Shown here: positions 1 to 5,796 of the stretch, one piece after another
How positions within the stretch are numbered: position 1 is the stretch's first letter
Layout: every line of letters starts with the position of its first letter
Assembly: GCA_029570205.1 (NCBI GenBank)
Contig: JAKQSI010000012.1
Location: 1 to 5,970 of the forward strand
Direction: 5' to 3'
DNA from: Candidatus Omnitrophota bacterium
GTDB taxonomy: Bacteria > Hinthialibacterota > Hinthialibacteria > Hinthialibacterales > JAKPRU01
DNA length: 5,970 nucleotides
Notes under the pieces: generated by a model
The model's database searches: none
What the model saw: the letters and a program-made list of their open reading frames with translations, nothing else
Told to the model about the DNA's origin: nothing
Program-made: the position numbers and the translations under genes

Positions 1-1
1 G

Positions 2-487
2 CTGCTGCGGACCTTTTGCCGATTGCCGACGGTCGGCAAGACCAGGCCGACGCCGGTGGTGTGGACGAACGGATGTTTCGACATTCTTCATCACGGACAT
101 GTGCGGTACTTGCAGGAGATCAAGCGGCGGATCCCCGACTCGATACTGGTCGTTGGCGTCAATTCCGATGAGGCGGTGCAGGAACTGAAAGGTCCTCTTC
201 GACCCGTGATGCGGTTCTCGTGCAGAGCCGGGATTATCGCCAGCATCAAAGGCGTTGATTTGGTAGTTGAAATCGGCATGGACGCAACGGAAGGTCTGGA
301 AACGCTGAGACCGGACATTTATGTGAAAGGTGGTGATTATTCAATCGACACAATCAATCAGGTGGAACGTCGTTTCGTGGAAGGATACGGCGGGAAGGTC
401 CTCCTGATTCCGAGTGACATGGACATGTCGTCATCGAAGATCATCCGGGCAATGCAAGGCAGAGAGAACCCCATAAGCAGTACATGA
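2..487 (+). CDS. RfaE2/HldE-C-like nucleotidyltransferase (probably 5'-partial)
   Basis: This resembles the cytidylyltransferase-fold enzyme that transfers AMP to D-glycero-beta-D-manno-heptose 1-phosphate to give ADP-heptose, a cytoplasmic step in LPS core synthesis. Seen: a TNGCFDILHHGH block containing the nucleotide-binding HxGH signature, then VGVNSDE, a KGPLRPV segment, CRAGIIAS, RPDIYVKGGDYS and a C-terminal MSSSKIIRAM comparable to the ISSTxII motif of the superfamily. The frame is open to the left edge with no in-frame ATG; the only visible start is a TTG at 23 with poor ribosome-binding context, so the true start probably lies outside the window. Divergent points are the SSSK in place of the usual STT-like motif, and the segment after RPV, which lacks the usual acidic stretch. 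The fold is secure. The substrate is not: another sugar-phosphate or polyol-phosphate nucleotidyltransferase is possible. It may be a host gene beside an integration site or a phage cargo gene. Confidence 0.82.
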   Translation: MLRTFCRLPTVGKTRPTPVVWTNGCFDILHHGHVRYLQEIKRRIPDSILVVGVNSDEAVQELKGPLRPVMRFSCRAGIIASIKGVDLVVEIGMDATEGLETLRPDIYVKGGDYSIDTINQVERRFVEGYGGKVLLIPSDMDMSSSKIIRAMQGRENPISST

Positions 488-530
488 GGCCGGGAGGTTG
501 CCTTCCTCCCCTTTCAGCGATCTCCCGGCC
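488..530 (+). promoter_or_regulatory. Intergenic stem-loop H1 (GGCCGGGAG / CTCCCGGCC)
   Basis: A perfect 9-bp inverted repeat, arms 488-496 and 522-530, extended by one G.T pair (497/521), encloses a 23-nt pyrimidine-rich loop that includes CCTCCC. The left arm starts directly after the TGA of the upstream gene (485-487) and the right arm ends 33 nt before the excisionase-like start. No proper T run follows, so it is not a textbook intrinsic terminator. An alternative 6-bp pairing, GGGAGG (492-497) with CCTCCC (505-510), would exclude the outer stem. The arms match those of H3 at 3699-3744 closely. Confidence 0.6.
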
Positions 531-563
531 AACCTTTCATGCAATTTCAGACGGTGAAAAGGA

Positions 564-875
564 ATGAATCTGGAACCTTTACTCACGACACAAGAAGTGG
601 CAGAGCAGTTGAAGCTCAGTTTGAAGACCGTGCGCGGCTTGAGAGCGAAGGGATTGGTCCCACTGGATTTCGGAGGGAATTTCCGCTATCGCGCGAAGGA
701 CGTCGCGGCGTATATTGAGCAGTGTGCGGAGGCCGCGAAAAGAGAAGCGGGACTTGGCCTGAATATCCCACCGTTCCCCCATCCGCTCGAACGGGTTGCC
801 GAAGGGACTGACAAAGTGTTACCCTTCCGGGAACTCAAGAACGAAAGGGAGGATCGAAATGTCGTGGGTCGCTAA
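564..875 (+). CDS. Excisionase-like small HTH DNA-binding protein
   Basis: A 103-residue protein with an N-terminal helix-turn-helix of the excisionase/MerR-like HTH_17 type: residues about 6-53 contain LTTQEVAEQLKLSLKTVRGL, then a short wing (GGNFRYR) and KDVAAYIEQ. Family members bind DNA as accessory factors, and next to an integrase they typically direct excision, so recombination directionality factor is the natural inference. The remaining half (about residues 55-103) is a charged tail with no recognised domain, making the protein longer than typical 50-70-residue Xis proteins. The ATG at 564 is preceded closely by GAAAAGGA. The 3' end overlaps the integrase start by 17 nt and carries the integrase ribosome-binding site, implying coupled expression. 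It could instead be a transcriptional regulator of the element. Confidence 0.85.
   Translation: MNLEPLLTTQEVAEQLKLSLKTVRGLRAKGLVPLDFGGNFRYRAKDVAAYIEQCAEAAKREAGLGLNIPPFPHPLERVAEGTDKVLPFRELKNEREDRNVVGR
847..852 (+). promoter_or_regulatory. Ribosome-binding site deciding the integrase start
   Basis: GGGAGG lies 6 nt before the ATG at 859, inside the end of the excisionase-like gene. It favours this start over a possible upstream start at 796, which would add 21 residues of unrelated composition. Confidence 0.7.
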
Positions 876-2082
876 ACGGACGGAACGCGGTACTTGGGTT
901 TATCGATGGACAGAAGGCGGGAAAACGTATCAACGCACCATGCCTAAATCCATACGCACGAAGCGGGATGCAGAGCGCGTACAACGGGCGTGGGATGAGC
1001 AGCGCGAAGACCATGCAAAGAAGCATCGGTCCGGTGTGCCGTGGACCATTGATCGGGCATACGAGGAAGTTGCGAAATCGAATCTCTCTCCCAGATATCA
1101 GCGCGAGCGAGATCGGTATGTGTCGAACCTCAAGGCTTTTTTTGGGGATACTCCACTGGCACAAATCAATGTGGGGGCAATCAAGCGATGGGTAGTCTGG
1201 TGTCTGGAACGACCGGGACGCGCAGCGGCGAAGGTCCGGAATTCGACGATCCGACATGAATACTACACCCTCTCGCAACTGTTCCAGGCCGCTGTCGAGA
1301 ACGGGGCACTGGTTGAGAATCCATGCAAACGGATCACGCTCAAGAAGATTCTCCCTGATGACACACGGCGGCGGGAACGAGTTCTGTCGCCCGATGAAAT
1401 ACAGAGACTCGTCGATCACTCACAGGGCCATGTCCGGTTATACATCGTCGTTGCATGGGCAACGGCTGGACGGATGAGCGAGATTCTGCAACTGGAGTGG
1501 CGGGACATTGATGTGGGGGCCGGAACCATCACGTTCCGGCATGAACCGCCGGAACGACGCACCAAGAACAGGAAGACAAGGACGGTTCGAATTGCCCGGC
1601 AATTTACGGAATTTATTGCGAGTCAGCCCCGCGTGGAAGATTCCCCGTGGGTTTTCTCGCACCCTGACGGATCGAGGATTCTAAACGTGAAGGGTGGTAT
1701 TCGACTTGCTACGAAGAGGGCGGGACTTGAAGGCGTGACCTCGCACACGATCCGCCATTCCGTCAACTCGGCCCTACTTGCCGGCGGCTTCTCGCAGACA
1801 GTGGTCCGGGATCATGTAGGGCATTCGGATTTTCGGATGACGTCGCATTACGCACATAGCCTGGACGAGGAACGGGCAAGGGCTGCCGAACACCTCGCAG
1901 CGGTGTGCCCCGATGCAGAAGAATCAAAAGACTCGTGCCCAAACTCGTGCCCAAACGATGAATTGATCGAAAAAATAGACAAGATTCTCGCAAGGCCGGA
2001 AGTTGTAAGTATAATGGAAATCGTCCAAGATTATTCATCAAATCCGCGCGAACCAGCAGTCTCTAGGCATGGCATGGTTTGA
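859..2082 (+). CDS. int: Tyrosine recombinase / phage integrase
   Basis: A 407-residue site-specific recombinase that would cut and rejoin attachment sites through a phosphotyrosine intermediate. The N-terminal 45 or so residues (WVAKRTERGTWVYRW...) look like an arm-type DNA-binding domain. Residues about 63-165 form a SAM-like core-binding domain, and about 175-345 the catalytic domain. Visible active-site candidates are Arg205 (TAGRMSEI), Lys236 (RRTKNRKTR), His296 and Arg299 (HTIRH), His322 (VGHSDF) and nucleophile Tyr331 (SHYAH), so the full R-K-HxxR-H-Y set is present and the enzyme is probably active. The tail after the catalytic domain is unusual: it holds a duplicated SCPN motif from a 12-bp tandem repeat, followed by a predicted helical stretch. 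The gene overlaps the excisionase-like gene by 17 nt and lies on the same strand. Length is normal for phage integrases. Confidence 0.96.
   Translation: MSWVAKRTERGTWVYRWTEGGKTYQRTMPKSIRTKRDAERVQRAWDEQREDHAKKHRSGVPWTIDRAYEEVAKSNLSPRYQRERDRYVSNLKAFFGDTPLAQINVGAIKRWVVWCLERPGRAAAKVRNSTIRHEYYTLSQLFQAAVENGALVENPCKRITLKKILPDDTRRRERVLSPDEIQRLVDHSQGHVRLYIVVAWATAGRMSEILQLEWRDIDVGAGTITFRHEPPERRTKNRKTRTVRIARQFTEFIASQPRVEDSPWVFSHPDGSRILNVKGGIRLATKRAGLEGVTSHTIRHSVNSALLAGGFSQTVVRDHVGHSDFRMTSHYAHSLDEERARAAEHLAAVCPDAEESKDSCPNSCPNDELIEKIDKILARPEVVSIMEIVQDYSSNPREPAVSRHGMV
1931..1954 (+). repeat. Perfect 12-bp tandem duplication in the integrase 3' end
   Basis: ACTCGTGCCCAA occurs twice back to back (1931-1942 and 1943-1954). 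The repeat is in frame and gives SCPNSCPN downstream of the catalytic tyrosine. It could be simple slippage, a small Cys-containing motif, or a DNA site read by a recombination protein. Confidence 0.9.
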
Positions 2083-2113
2083 TCGAGATTAGAACCGAAA
2101 GGTGGTGATTGGG

Positions 2114-2149
2114 ATGTGCAAGAAAAAGGGTGGACGAAAGGGTAAATAA
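2114..2149 (+). CDS. Possible 11-residue basic peptide (MCKKKGGRKGK)
   Basis: A short ORF in the gap between integrase and ATP-grasp gene. An SD-like AAAGGTGG (2098-2105) lies 8 nt before the ATG, and the TAA ends 10 nt before the left arm of hairpin H2. Six of eleven residues are Lys or Arg and three are Gly, with one Cys. No function can be assigned. Placed between a ribosome-binding site and a strong hairpin, it could be a leader peptide whose translation affects H2, a tiny phage protein, or chance. Such a short ORF has little statistical support; the main evidence is SD spacing and position. Confidence 0.3.
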   Translation: MCKKKGGRKGK

Positions 2150-2159
2150 TTCATACCTT

Positions 2160-2209
2160 GAGTCGGGAGAGCGTTCTTTGGATTACCCACCCCCATGCTC
2201 TCCCGACTC
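2160..2209 (+). promoter_or_regulatory. Intergenic stem-loop H2 (perfect 13-bp inverted repeat)
   Basis: GAGTCGGGAGAGC (2160-2172) pairs perfectly with GCTCTCCCGACTC (2197-2209) around a 24-nt loop that includes ACCCACCCCC. No T run follows. The right arm ends 26 nt before the ATG at 2236. It keeps the CGGGAG/CTCCCG core of H1 and H3 but has different outer pairs. It may be a terminator for the integrase block, a 5'-leader structure, an RNase III-type processing site, or a DNA operator made of inverted half-sites. Confidence 0.65.
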
Positions 2210-2235
2210 CTCGAAACAGAGGAAAGGAAATACCT

Positions 2236-3048
2236 ATGTCAAACCTCAAACATGTCTCATTCCCGTACCGATGCATAGGTAAATCGGATGAACAAATTGT
2301 GGATCGGGATGTTGAGCCTACCAGTATGCTGTATTGGCTACCGATTGTCGAAACATTATATGGAATCAGAGTACCGAAAACAGTCCTTGTTCCGGTTGAC
2401 CCCCTGGAGTGTTTCCAGTGTTTGGACGGAAATGTTGACCCGTTTCGCGACTCGGAGGTTGGGACCAATTGTGAGTTGATGGGGTACCCCGTCTTTGTTA
2501 GGACCGATCTATTCTCTGGAAAACACTCTTGGTCCAACACTTGTTTCGTTGAGGATCGAGGTAGTTTAATGCCAAACCTCTTCAGGCTCCTCGATGAATC
2601 TGCTATGCGTGACCTGGAAGTGAATGCGATAGCTATACGCGAATACATTCCGATGGCGACTCTATTCTATGCGTTTTATGGGAAGATGCCGGTCAACCCG
2701 GAAATCCGGTTCTTTGCGCGGGACGGCAAAATTGAGTGCCAGCACTGGTACTGGATTCCCGACGCGATCAAGAAATCCGGTGCGCCGGTATTCGATCTTG
2801 CCGGGTCGCAGATAACGGAATCCGAATGGACGCACCGCCTTGATTTCGCTCGACAATCCATGGGAACGGATGAAAAGGAATTATTGAAGATTGAACTCCT
2901 CAACACAATGGCAACTGTAATTGCCGCGCAATTCGAAGGCTATTGGTCCATCGACTTCTGTTTGTCCAAAACAGAAGGCTGGGTTCTGATCGACATGGCG
3001 GAAGGCGATAAATCCTGGCATCCAGACGATTGCGAGTTCAAGCGATGA
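2236..3048 (+). CDS. ATP-grasp domain protein of phage type
   Basis: A 270-residue protein that appears to belong to the ATP-grasp superfamily, whose members join a carboxylate to an amine or similar nucleophile through an acyl-phosphate. Visible landmarks are PVFVRTD with GKHSW (Arg89, Lys96), expected around the nucleotide-binding loops; EIRFFARDGKIE (from Glu156), resembling the E-R-F-DGK strand of phage ATP-grasp proteins; and a C-terminal SIDFCLSKTEGWVLIDMAEGDKSWH (Asp240, Asp253) in the place of the metal-binding acidic residues. The family link rests on these motifs only; the substrate is unknown. The ATG at 2236 is preferred because GAGGAAAGGAAA lies just upstream; an alternative TTG at 2158 would put hairpin H2 inside the coding region. 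The stop overlaps the next start as ATGA, so expression is probably coupled. There is no signal peptide, so a cytoplasmic location is expected. Confidence 0.75.
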   Translation: MSNLKHVSFPYRCIGKSDEQIVDRDVEPTSMLYWLPIVETLYGIRVPKTVLVPVDPLECFQCLDGNVDPFRDSEVGTNCELMGYPVFVRTDLFSGKHSWSNTCFVEDRGSLMPNLFRLLDESAMRDLEVNAIAIREYIPMATLFYAFYGKMPVNPEIRFFARDGKIECQHWYWIPDAIKKSGAPVFDLAGSQITESEWTHRLDFARQSMGTDEKELLKIELLNTMATVIAAQFEGYWSIDFCLSKTEGWVLIDMAEGDKSWHPDDCEFKR

Positions 3049-3374
3049 GAGAACAGATCCCTTCATACATGATGCGCCAGCTTGCCGCCAAGTACCAGAA
3101 GCCGGAATCGGAGATTCAGGACATGGCCGACACCCTGGCCCAGCGGTCCCAAAGACCGGCCTCGGTCCTACTTCATATTAACAGGGATGTCGCGATCCGC
3201 TGGTGGGAATCCGTGAAAGGAGGTAATCGCCGTGACAAAAGTAATCGCGGTTTTACTGGCAGTGCTCAAAATAGCCGGTCCGTTCCTGGAGTGGATCACA
3301 AGTCCGATCCGGCGGAGAAAGTCCATTCTGGAGCAGCTCGAGAAAGACAAAAAAGAAATCCTGCACAAGGTTGA
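3045..3374 (+). CDS. Small hypothetical protein with an overprinted 3' half
   Basis: The ATG at 3045 overlaps the stop of the ATP-grasp gene (ATGA), a usual sign of translational coupling. The first 62 or so residues look like a real, mostly helical protein (REQIPSYMMRQLAAKYQK..., then DVAIRWWESVKGG), with codons such as GCC, CTG, CAG and AAG. From the point where the next gene's ribosome-binding site is crossed (3216-3224) the composition changes to a hydrophilic R/S/N/G-rich tail with poorer codons (AGT, AAT, AGA, CAA). That tail overlaps the next gene by 143 nt in another frame. The N-terminal half is probably real and the tail is either an overprinted extension or readthrough after loss of an earlier stop. 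No family is recognised. Confidence 0.55.
   Translation: MREQIPSYMMRQLAAKYQKPESEIQDMADTLAQRSQRPASVLLHINRDVAIRWWESVKGGNRRDKSNRGFTGSAQNSRSVPGVDHKSDPAEKVHSGAARERQKRNPAQG
3216..3224 (+). promoter_or_regulatory. Near-ideal Shine-Dalgarno for the GTG start at 3232
   Basis: AAAGGAGGT sits 7 nt before the GTG. An in-frame TGA at 3214-3216 closes that frame upstream, so the GTG is the practical start. The site lies inside the overlapping upstream reading frame. Confidence 0.85.
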
Positions 3375-3447
3375 GGATCTGACCTCCACGGACAAGACTG
3401 ACCGGGACAAGGCTCGCAAGGAATTGCTCAAGGAGATCCGCGAATGA
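3232..3447 (+). CDS. Short membrane-anchored coiled-coil protein, candidate inner-membrane spanin
   Basis: A 71-residue protein: an N-terminal hydrophobic segment (about residues 3-22, KVIAVLLAVLKIAGPFLEWI), a basic RRRK, then a highly charged, probably coiled-coil helix (about 28-70). It starts at GTG with a very strong ribosome-binding site, and its stop overlaps the next gene's start as ATGA. A small membrane protein with a coiled coil directly followed by a small lipoprotein is the layout of phage Rz/Rz1-type spanins, which join inner and outer membranes during lysis. Two points weaken this: it is shorter than typical i-spanins, and RRRK after the hydrophobic segment suggests, by the positive-inside rule, that the C-terminus could be cytoplasmic. 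A holin-associated or other small phage membrane protein is the alternative. Confidence 0.75.
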   Translation: MTKVIAVLLAVLKIAGPFLEWITSPIRRRKSILEQLEKDKKEILHKVEDLTSTDKTDRDKARKELLKEIRE

Positions 3448-3680
3448 AACTGACCCTGTGTGCCCTCATCCTGGCCGTGCTTTTGCTCAGTTGCGCCACC
3501 GCCTCCAACGTTGGCAACGTCCCGGAACTGCCCGGCGACCTGAGCCTGACGGCACCGCCGGAATATCCGGGCTATTTGCTGATCGCCCCGGAGGACCTGA
3601 AGAGCATCCTGACACGGATGCAAGATGCGGAGACAAAGAACGAACGGATCTACGAAGATAAAGGGGACGCGATCCCCTAG
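3444..3680 (+). CDS. Small lipoprotein, candidate outer-membrane spanin (Rz1-like)
   Basis: A 78-residue protein with a clear lipoprotein signal peptide: MK, a hydrophobic stretch LTLCALILAVL, and the lipobox LLSC with the lipidated Cys at position 17. Ala at +2 carries no inner-membrane retention signal, so outer-membrane anchoring is expected in a Gram-negative host. The mature part has a proline-containing stretch (PELPG, APPEYPG) and a charged C-terminal helix (EDLKSILTRMQDAETKNERIYED). The ATG lies in an ATGA overlap with the preceding membrane protein, with AAGGAG a few bases upstream. Pairing with that gene and the lytic enzyme further downstream supports an o-spanin role, but the assignment rests on architecture, not on a recognised sequence family. 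Confidence 0.78.
   Translation: MKLTLCALILAVLLLSCATASNVGNVPELPGDLSLTAPPEYPGYLLIAPEDLKSILTRMQDAETKNERIYEDKGDAIP
3662..3678 (+). other. Small hairpin over the lipoprotein stop codon
   Basis: AGGGGA (3662-3667) and TCCCCT (3673-3678) form a perfect 6-bp stem with a 5-nt loop. It ends inside the TAG stop at 3678-3680 and lies 20 nt before terminator H3, with which its second arm could compete. Confidence 0.45.
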
Positions 3681-3698
3681 AGACTCCCCTTTCATGTC

Positions 3699-3754
3699 GG
3701 GCCGGGGGATTCTCCTCCGCTCCTCTACTCAAATCTCCCGGCCCATATTTTTTT
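3699..3754 (+). terminator. Stem-loop H3 with T run, probable intrinsic terminator
   Basis: GGGCCGGGGGAT (3699-3710) pairs with ATCTCCCGGCCC (3733-3744) over 12 bp with one G.T pair, around a 22-nt loop rich in C and T that includes CCTCC. A run of seven T follows at 3748-3754 after a 3-nt gap. This fits a rho-independent terminator for the block ending with the lipoprotein, although the loop is much longer than usual. The right arm ends 22 nt before the methyltransferase ATG, so it may also act in that gene's leader. Confidence 0.65.
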
Positions 3755-3766
3755 CAGGTTTGGCCT

Positions 3767-5155
3767 ATGGTAATCGACTTCCATTGTGGGCATAGCGTTG
3801 ACGTTCTGGGAGGTTTCCCGGAGAACCATTTTCACCTATGCGTGACCAGTCCGCCCTACTGGTGCTTGCGTTCGTACAAAACGGATCCCCAGGTATGGGG
3901 TGGCGATCCATTATGCGAGCATGAGTGGACGGAACAACGCGGCCCGATCACAACACGATGGGCCGATGGAACCAAGGCCAAGTTCTCCGACCTGGACAGG
4001 GCCAATGCCAAGCGCGTTCGCGAACCGGTTAGCTACGGGGACATGTGTTCGAAATGCGGTGCGTGGCGCGGTGAGTTGGGGCATGAAAGGAGACCGGACC
4101 AGTACATTGAACATTTGGCGGAAGTTTTCGCAGCAGTCCGCCGCGTCCTCCGGAAAGACGGCTCGCTCTGGATTGTGATCGGGGATACTTATGCGAGCGG
4201 AAAAGGGCGCTGTAACCCGGAAATCCGCGCGAGGAACTCCATGCACGTAAAGGCATACAGAGAAGGCGGAGTCCCGGCATTTTCTCAGAACAGATCGGAT
4301 CTCACCGCGTCCGGTCTCAAACCCAAGGAACTGGCGGGGATTCCATGGCGTCTCGCATTCCGGCTCCAGGCACAGGGCTGGTGGTGGCGGTCCGTAGATA
4401 TCTGGCATAAGCCGAATGGTATGCCATATCAGGGGAAGGACCGGACCTCGTGCGCCCACGAATATGTGCTCATGTTCACGAAATCAAAGAAGAACTATTG
4501 GGACGTGGAAGCCACCCGGGAGCCGCTCGCGCCAGACTCCTTGGCCCGATCCATGCGTCGAAAGGGAAACGGAAAATATTACGGCTCCACTCCCCATGAA
4601 ATCGGCAACATTGCGAGAGGCGAGAATTACGGCCCGGACGGGAATCCAGAGAAAATCTGTAATCCGTTGGGGCGGCAGATGCGGAGCGTTCGGACCGTGG
4701 CGAATCGTGGAACGAGACGCAAACATTTCGCGGTGTATCCGGTGAAGCTGATTGAACCCTACATTCTCTCTGGCACTTCCGAGCGCGGATGCTGCCCGGA
4801 ATGTGGTGCACCGTGGGCGCGGATCATTGAATGGCACGATTATCCCGATGATCCCGCCATACGCGGCGGGAGTTACCAGCAATCAACGCACAACCGAATG
4901 CACGAACTGTCCAAGCGCAAGGGAGAACCAAAGGGGCGCAAGTTTCCTGTCCTGATGGGTTGGCAGCCTTCATGCAGGTGTAACGCCGGCGATCCCGTGC
5001 CCTGCCGTGTTCTCGACCCGTTCGCGGGATCCGGCACGACCGGCATTGTATGCGAGCGATTCAATCGAGACGCCGTGCTGATTGACCTGAACCCGGACTT
5101 TGTTGCTATTGCGCGGGAACGGATCCACGCGGAGGGTCATCCTCTCTTTATCTGA
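3767..5155 (+). CDS. Beta-class DNA methyltransferase (N4-cytosine or N6-adenine), orphan
   Basis: A 462-residue SAM-dependent DNA amino-methyltransferase. Catalytic motif IV is TSPPYW (Ser28-Pro-Pro-Tyr31) near the N-terminus. The SAM-binding motif DPFAGSGTTG (417-426) is near the C-terminus, followed by VLIDLNPDFVAIARERI. The order catalytic-then-SAM-binding is that of the beta class; SPPY is most common in N4-cytosine enzymes but also occurs in N6-adenine ones. It is longer than typical members (about 300-350). The extra length includes possible zinc-binding modules: Cys50/His52 with Cys94-x-x-Cys97, and Cys343-x-x-Cys346 with Cys403/Cys405. The central region (about 200-330) presumably contains target recognition. 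No restriction endonuclease lies beside it, so self-protection against host restriction or a regulatory role is inferred. The ribosome-binding site is weak (CAGG, 3756-3759), and the gene directly follows hairpin H3. Confidence 0.94.
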   Translation: MVIDFHCGHSVDVLGGFPENHFHLCVTSPPYWCLRSYKTDPQVWGGDPLCEHEWTEQRGPITTRWADGTKAKFSDLDRANAKRVREPVSYGDMCSKCGAWRGELGHERRPDQYIEHLAEVFAAVRRVLRKDGSLWIVIGDTYASGKGRCNPEIRARNSMHVKAYREGGVPAFSQNRSDLTASGLKPKELAGIPWRLAFRLQAQGWWWRSVDIWHKPNGMPYQGKDRTSCAHEYVLMFTKSKKNYWDVEATREPLAPDSLARSMRRKGNGKYYGSTPHEIGNIARGENYGPDGNPEKICNPLGRQMRSVRTVANRGTRRKHFAVYPVKLIEPYILSGTSERGCCPECGAPWARIIEWHDYPDDPAIRGGSYQQSTHNRMHELSKRKGEPKGRKFPVLMGWQPSCRCNAGDPVPCRVLDPFAGSGTTGIVCERFNRDAVLIDLNPDFVAIARERIHAEGHPLFI

Positions 5156-5208: not shown

Positions 5209-5796
5209 ATGAAAGACCAAGAAATCACTGAAAACCGCGAGCATGTTGTAACGGTCCTGGCGCAAGTGGACTTCCGAGACTCGAAGTTTGCCGAAGCGAT
5301 TTGCTGGCAGGAGGAAAGGACCTTCAACCCGGCATCAGTCCGGTTTGAGCCGGGATTCTTCGAGAAATATATGAAACCCATGTCGTTGCAGGATCTCGCG
5401 GCTCGAAATCCGCATTGTGTTTCGGACCGGTGTTCCTACGAAACCGAGCGGGTATTGGAGGCATGTTCCTTTGGTCCGATGCACCTTCTGGGGGCCACTG
5501 CACGAGAATGCGGATTTCGGGAAGCCTTTCTGACGGAGCTGGTTCGATCAACCCACGAGGCACTTATCTGGTCTCAGAAATACATGGACCGGCTGGTCAA
5601 AAGAGCAAGAACGAAGGGATACCGTGACCGCGAACTGTACGAGCGTCTTGCCCTTGCATGGAACTGCGGTCCCGTTGCCCTTTCGTGGAACCACATCCCG
5701 GAAGACCGATTGAACGAGTACGTTGTGCCGGTCTTGCAGGAATATGAGCGTATTGGCGGCAATTTCGCTCCTCTGAACAAGGCGCCCACTATCTAA
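5209..5796 (+). CDS. Lysozyme-like / SLT-type lytic transglycosylase (phage lytic enzyme)
   Basis: A 195-residue protein with a lysozyme-like fold signature. WQEERTFNPASVRFEPGFF resembles the ESxFNPxAxRxEPGF block of phage transglycosylases, placing the catalytic Glu at 36 by alignment to FNP (Glu35 is adjacent). CSFGPMHLLGATARECGF corresponds to the S-G-L-M-Q...GATAxExGF motif, with GPMH instead of GLMQ. LALAWNCGP matches the AxAYNxGP motif. Such enzymes cleave the MurNAc-GlcNAc bond of peptidoglycan. There is no signal peptide, so export would depend on a holin or tail delivery. The ATG at 5209 follows a weak site; an ATG at 5204 in another frame stops at once. It lies 53 nt after the methyltransferase in the same direction. 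Endolysin and virion-associated lysin are both possible. Confidence 0.8.
   Translation: MKDQEITENREHVVTVLAQVDFRDSKFAEAICWQEERTFNPASVRFEPGFFEKYMKPMSLQDLAARNPHCVSDRCSYETERVLEACSFGPMHLLGATARECGFREAFLTELVRSTHEALIWSQKYMDRLVKRARTKGYRDRELYERLALAWNCGPVALSWNHIPEDRLNEYVVPVLQEYERIGGNFAPLNKAPTI

Follow-up and report, generated by a model that had tools for sequence, protein, structure and literature searches.

In phage T7, hairpins lying between genes that share one long transcript (a late terminator and RNase III sites) determine where mRNAs end and in what ratios the genes are expressed. In Pseudomonas phage LUZ100, a mapped terminator (T4) directly past the integrase is partly read through (PMC10134795). 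Mapped terminators have a median loop of 4 nt across species, and TransTermHP limits loops to 3-13 nt (PMC12207403). Cluster K mycobacteriophages carry ESAS elements, 17-bp imperfect inverted repeats with a spacer of mostly 4-13 bp that occur in many copies per genome and are tied to the 13-bp SAS (GGGATAGGAGCCC) at the start site (PMC3203893). Here we analyzed three intergenic hairpins, H1, H2 and H3, in a 5,970-nt stretch of DNA (the window) that is the entire contig JAKQSI010000012.1 (C122) of a Candidatus Omnitrophota metagenome-assembled genome (MAG; GCA_029570205.1, here G000). We found that these hairpins are conserved structures, for which ordinary intercistronic hairpins of the terminator type offer the simplest account.

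Hairpins of the window and their copies in a related phage

The three hairpins, which lie in the 6.8% of the window that is non-coding, are the following.

488-530, plus strand: H1, a 14-bp stem including G·U with a 15-nt pyrimidine loop, in the gap between the nucleotidyltransferase stop codon and the excisionase-like gene xis
2160-2209, plus strand: H2, a 15-bp stem with a 20-nt loop and without a T-tract, in the gap from the integrase gene int and a micro open reading frame (micro-ORF) to the R2K-like ATP-grasp gene
3699-3744, plus strand: H3, a 13-bp stem with a 20-nt pyrimidine loop, in the gap from a lipoprotein-like ORF to the DNA methyltransferase gene

All three were stable, GC-rich and intergenic, 3' of a stop codon, as is expected of intrinsic terminators. 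A first-pass annotation of this DNA had located the same three hairpins, and we reproduced its coordinates and cores as well as the lengths of the arms and their distances to the start codon (33, 26 and 22 nt). Its stems of 10, 13 and 12 pairs with loops of 23, 24 and 22 nt were right for the arms, but when G·U pairs were counted the stems grew to 14, 15 and 13 bp, leaving loops of 15, 20 and 20 nt. It had also placed the hairpins between the gene blocks; the gap between the methyltransferase and lysin-like genes has no such hairpin. H1, H2 and H3 were the top three hairpins in the window (scores of 30, 39 and 35), with fold z-scores of -5.1, -6.6 and -4.6, and none of 200 shuffles folded equally well. 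Their loops were 75-93% pyrimidine. Sixty randomised windows contained a mean of 1.1 stems of at least 10 bp per window and gave a best score of 35, so that H1 is unremarkable by score alone. The sequence of H1 was unchanged in C75, a strain-variant contig of the same MAG.

Copies were also found in a second MAG of the same genus (G001, labelled Candidatus Omnitrophota), which holds a 44,668-bp phage contig (C468, JAKPYU010000028.1). The reverse complement of this contig, hereafter P, is colinear first with C75 and next with the window (~72-76% identity), and encodes a head maturation protease and a minor tail protein (PHROGs). P carries H1' (P 3789-3830) and H3' (P 5228-5267). H1 and H1' were 95% identical, exceeding the 72-76% of the neighbouring sequence, and both are preceded by GCAGTACRTRA. 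H3 and H3' were 74% identical, each stands upstream of a methyltransferase gene, and H3' shows compensatory and G·U changes. The first-pass annotation had named a lack of copies in relatives as grounds for giving up its proposal; H1 and H3 do have orthologues in the related phage. The loop was pyrimidine-rich in all five copies, and the gap between hairpin and start codon was 17-33 nt. The comparison covers two phages and five hairpin copies. No close relative of P was found among IMG/VR or phage records, and IMG/VR relatives sought through the integrase, ATP-grasp, lysin-like and methyltransferase proteins were distant homologues only.

P lacks both xis and int. Its gene order is nucleotidyltransferase, micro-ORF, H1' and ATP-grasp gene, versus nucleotidyltransferase, H1, xis, int, micro-ORF, H2 and ATP-grasp gene in the window. 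Recombination between hairpins at the edges of a mobile cassette, moving the xis-int module in or out, would produce such a difference, and the conservation of H1 above its flanks would suit it. However, H1 and H2 were just 60% identical, so that any exchange between them left no trace, and H3 is conserved despite flanking no variable cassette. We consider a role as cassette edges most improbable.

Pairing in the sense transcript

We aligned the five copies over 13 pairs, giving 65 pair cells. Standard pairs occupied 63 of these cells, and four of the 13 pairs had changed on both sides. The covariation score was 0.40, whereas shuffles gave 0.23 (0/500) and slid controls 0.03-0.09. The covariation claimed at first pass was thus upheld, with compensatory changes preserving the pairing, although the evidence is modest, if real, because the sequences are few and H1 and H1' are nearly identical.

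G·U on the plus strand made up seven of the nine non-Watson-Crick cells. The folding energy was also better on the plus strand than on the minus strand for H1 (-26.6 and -21.1 kcal/mol, respectively), H3 (-23.3 and -21.9), H1' (-28.0 and -21.8) and H3' (-23.2 and -18.3), and slightly better for H2 (-30.9 and -30.3). The spacing between the core arms varied over the five copies (20, 24, 25, 26 and 30 nt). Together with the compensatory changes, these observations favour an RNA hairpin in the sense transcript and argue against a dimer operator. The operator idea of the first-pass annotation would make the hairpins inverted repeats to which a phage repressor binds as a dimer, with which the recurrence of the GGCCGGGAG/CTCCCGGCC arms near start codons would agree. 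Yet half-sites spaced 20-30 nt apart fit no fixed-geometry dimer, G·U pairs are tolerated on just one strand, and no promoter-like site lies next to H1 or H3: the window has just one, at 2323-2351 on the minus strand. The idea is left unsupported by the arm spacing and the one-strand G·U tolerance, and we regard it as extremely unlikely.

Termination, processing and regulatory RNA

Two of the window hairpins are followed by T-tracts.

531-540, plus strand: weak T-tract past H1 (AACCTTTCAT)
3745-3754, plus strand: T-tract past H3 (ATATTTTTTT)

The longest T-run within 10 nt past the stem was 7 nt for H3, 5 for H3', 4 for H1', 3 for H1 and 1 for H2, and runs of at least 4 were present in 1.4-1.7% of random 10-nt windows. 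A T-run had previously been noted at H3 only; within the window this is correct for runs of at least 4, but H1 has a short TTT. Some other viral contigs contain GGCCGGGAG...CTCCCGGCC followed by TTTTTT, with a start codon 19-24 nt past the stem, and a scan of IMG/VR with the GGCCGGGAG...CTCCCGGCC pattern returned 108 stretches, mostly unrelated but including a few terminators carrying T6. P itself has further intergenic hairpins with T-runs, one of them with a 28-nt loop. Host 3' regions held 45 hairpins versus 15 in shuffles, and host tails were T-richer.

We conclude that H1, H2 and H3 are probably intrinsic terminators, placed between cistrons and in part read through, or stabilisers of the 3' end, and that they would insulate the gene blocks, the xis-int cassette among them. 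From the letters of the five copies, intrinsic termination would be the best reading for H3 and H1', and a weak version of it for H1; at H2 termination is unproven, and stabilisation or processing appears equally likely. The hairpin would form in the sense transcript between the last stop codon of a block and the next ribosome-binding site. The stem and the downstream U-tract would then cause partial termination by RNA polymerase, strong at H3 and H3' and weaker at H1' and H1, and the hairpin remaining at the 3' end would shield the upstream message. Only stabilisation, processing or pausing would be expected at H2, since it has no U-tract. The 17-33 nt that separate hairpin and start codon are too few to hold a promoter, which suggests that termination is partial or overcome; expression of the downstream genes would rely on read-through, on antitermination, or on a promoter that overlaps the hairpin or lies 5' of it. 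We infer partial termination, stabilisation and insulation; on balance these would fix how strongly the blocks are expressed relative to one another and keep the xis-int cassette insulated.

Several observations weigh against termination. H2 has no T-tract, so that taken by itself it falls short of a terminator, and H1 has just TTT. The T-run begins 4-5 nt past the stem in H1, H1' and H3', and a late start of this kind as a rule makes termination weaker. Loops of 15, 20 and 20 nt in H1, H2 and H3, and of 12 and 14 nt in the copies of the relative, mostly exceed the limits for the short loop that is typical of, if not strictly defining for, intrinsic terminators; we therefore class the hairpins as terminator-type and not as certified canonical terminators. 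A simple terminator scan (loops of at most 8 nt) reported none of H1, H2 and H3, and a T-rich tail followed just 2 of 14 long-loop 3' hairpins of the host.

It is possible, though rather unlikely, that the hairpins serve mRNA processing or stability, like the RNase III sites between phage T7 genes; cutting or capping of the stem would then turn each block into a stable message of its own, and termination would be unneeded. Their intercistronic sites immediately 5' of a ribosome-binding site, their 13-15-bp stems and the sense-strand pairing are consistent with this, and H2, lacking a T-tract, fits processing better than termination. On the other hand, processing has no need of the T-tracts past H3, H3' and H1', and the stems are short relative to classical RNase III substrates.

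We also assessed the first-pass proposal of an element-specific RNA family. A covariance model built from all five copies scored them at 50-60 bits, by construction. With H2 left out of the model, H2 scored 23.3 bits; with H1 and H1' left out, H1 scored 24.0 bits. By comparison, a terminator that follows an Hsp20-like gene of the host and has no relation to the phage scored 27.6 and 27.8 bits in these held-out searches. It consists of a stem, a pyrimidine-rich loop and TTTT, and was the best non-phage match to the model in 400 kb of host DNA. Since the held-out H1 and H2 ranked below it, the likeness among H1, H2 and H3 is no greater than their likeness to an unrelated terminator. H1 and H3 were 71% identical, and H2 was the weakest member at 56-60% identity to H1 or H3. 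Rfam gave no family match; its sole hit, at 20 bits, fell in another part of the window and is a chance match. Among the 150 scored candidates in each of 14 genomes of the phylum, the model recovered training members only, but the Hsp20 terminator was not listed at this depth either, so that absence from other genomes is not proven. With H1 and H2 below the Hsp20 terminator and no Rfam match, a distinct element-specific RNA family is not established.

The core CGGGAG/CTCCCG itself is common in the host (60 places versus 6 for the reversed pattern), largely in arrays resembling repetitive extragenic palindromes (REP-like). Such tandem arrays have the form GCGG[C/G]AGCGTCAGCT[G/C]CCGCCTTTCCTTGGAGT, with arms changing in step (L004 1490-1600 and 2530-2800), and seven REP-like copies stand at 48-nt spacing in G000:C48 80500-83000.

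A micro-ORF lies directly upstream of H2.

2114-2149, plus strand: 11-codon micro-ORF (MCKKKGGRKGK) with a Shine-Dalgarno (SD)-like AGGTGGTG, 10 nt upstream of H2

The same peptide is encoded in P upstream of H1' (P 3736-3771; G001:C468 40898-40933, minus strand) with two synonymous changes, and the distance from micro-ORF to hairpin is 10-17 nt in both phages. With the pattern used, no other copy was found in IMG/VR or among the 14 genomes searched. A phage-specific regulatory RNA family, in which the hairpins are regulator-bound or antitermination/attenuation sites, possibly with a leader peptide encoded by the Lys-rich micro-ORF, could explain this arrangement together with the stem covariation, the 95% identity of H1 and H1' against 72-76% for the flanks, the pyrimidine-rich loop in 5/5 copies and the lack of a non-phage copy among the 150 scored candidates in each of the 14 genomes. 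Against it stand the rank of held-out H1 and H2 below an unrelated host terminator, the lack of a micro-ORF at H3 or at H1 of the window, loop pairing with the downstream SD that was no better than that of shuffled loops, and the Rfam result; in addition, none of the relatives of the ATP-grasp gene in IMG/VR had a comparable CGGGAG hairpin beside the gene. We judge such a family improbable. The narrower proposal that micro-ORF and hairpin form a leader-peptide attenuator, in which ribosome behaviour would gate transcription into the ATP-grasp/lysis block, is very doubtful; if true, it would represent a new control device in phages, though nothing in the data requires it. Generic terminator-type hairpins fit the data better than either an operator or a distinct RNA family.

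Gene content and comparison with known systems

The genes around the hairpins are as follows.

2-487, plus strand: 3' part of a nucleotidyltransferase gene, cytidylyltransferase-like (HldE/RfaE-type; PF01467, phrog_7878)
564-875, plus strand: xis, excisionase-like, HTH_17 (PF12728, phrog_66; TIGR01764 slightly under its cut-off)
859-2082, plus strand: int, tyrosine integrase (PF00589, phrog_1)
2236-3048, plus strand: R2K clade ATP-grasp-like protein (PF14243, E 6e-5, under the Pfam cut-off)
3767-5155, plus strand: N6/N4 DNA methyltransferase (PF01555, phrog_67)

The ATP-grasp-like protein has relatives in viral contigs at 35-40% identity. Positions 1-540 of C75 match window positions 1-537 at 87% overall, and the two are variants of the nucleotidyltransferase 3' region. 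Since the match ends are exact on both sides and C75 stops at the final base of its match, C75 appears to carry the sequence that lies upstream in this phage; the two contigs are probably one phage, linked via a strain-variant bubble in the assembly. G001 also contains the decayed remnant of an integrase gene closely related to int, with a stop codon and a frameshift (C738 2748-3012, in a contig otherwise without a match to the window); this is consistent with a temperate phage of this host group.

The hairpins provide candidate boundaries of transcription units in phages that belong to an uncultured host group and whose transcription has yet to be studied, and they indicate that conservation between phages can extend to long-loop hairpins that a simple terminator scan overlooks. 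With the REP-like palindromes of the host they share the 6-bp core CGGGAG/CTCCCG, present in many copies there, but those palindromes have loops of ~4-6 nt, form tandem arrays and have a core of the CGGGAGC-TGACG type; we found no evidence that the hairpins descend from them. Like ESAS, they are imperfect inverted repeats with a variable spacer just 5' of the start codons of a subset of genes. Unlike ESAS, they number 2-3 copies, have T-tracts and are sited past the stop codons of blocks, and no SAS (GGGATAGGAGCCC) was seen by reading ahead of the three start codons in the window. They resemble the T7 intercistronic hairpins in lying between the genes of one long transcript, but T7 has its own RNA polymerase and its RNase III sites have longer, irregular stems. 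Compared with usual terminators, the loops are longer (12-20 nt versus ~4), and the T-tract is offset by 3-5 nt and missing in H2. The termination sites of LUZ100 were mapped experimentally, whereas the hairpins described here are known from sequence. As with intrinsic terminators between phage gene blocks such as LUZ100 T4, a GC-rich stem stands past the last gene of a block and flanks the lysogeny cassette, read-through would be needed for the downstream genes, and a T-tract follows the stem in three of the five copies.

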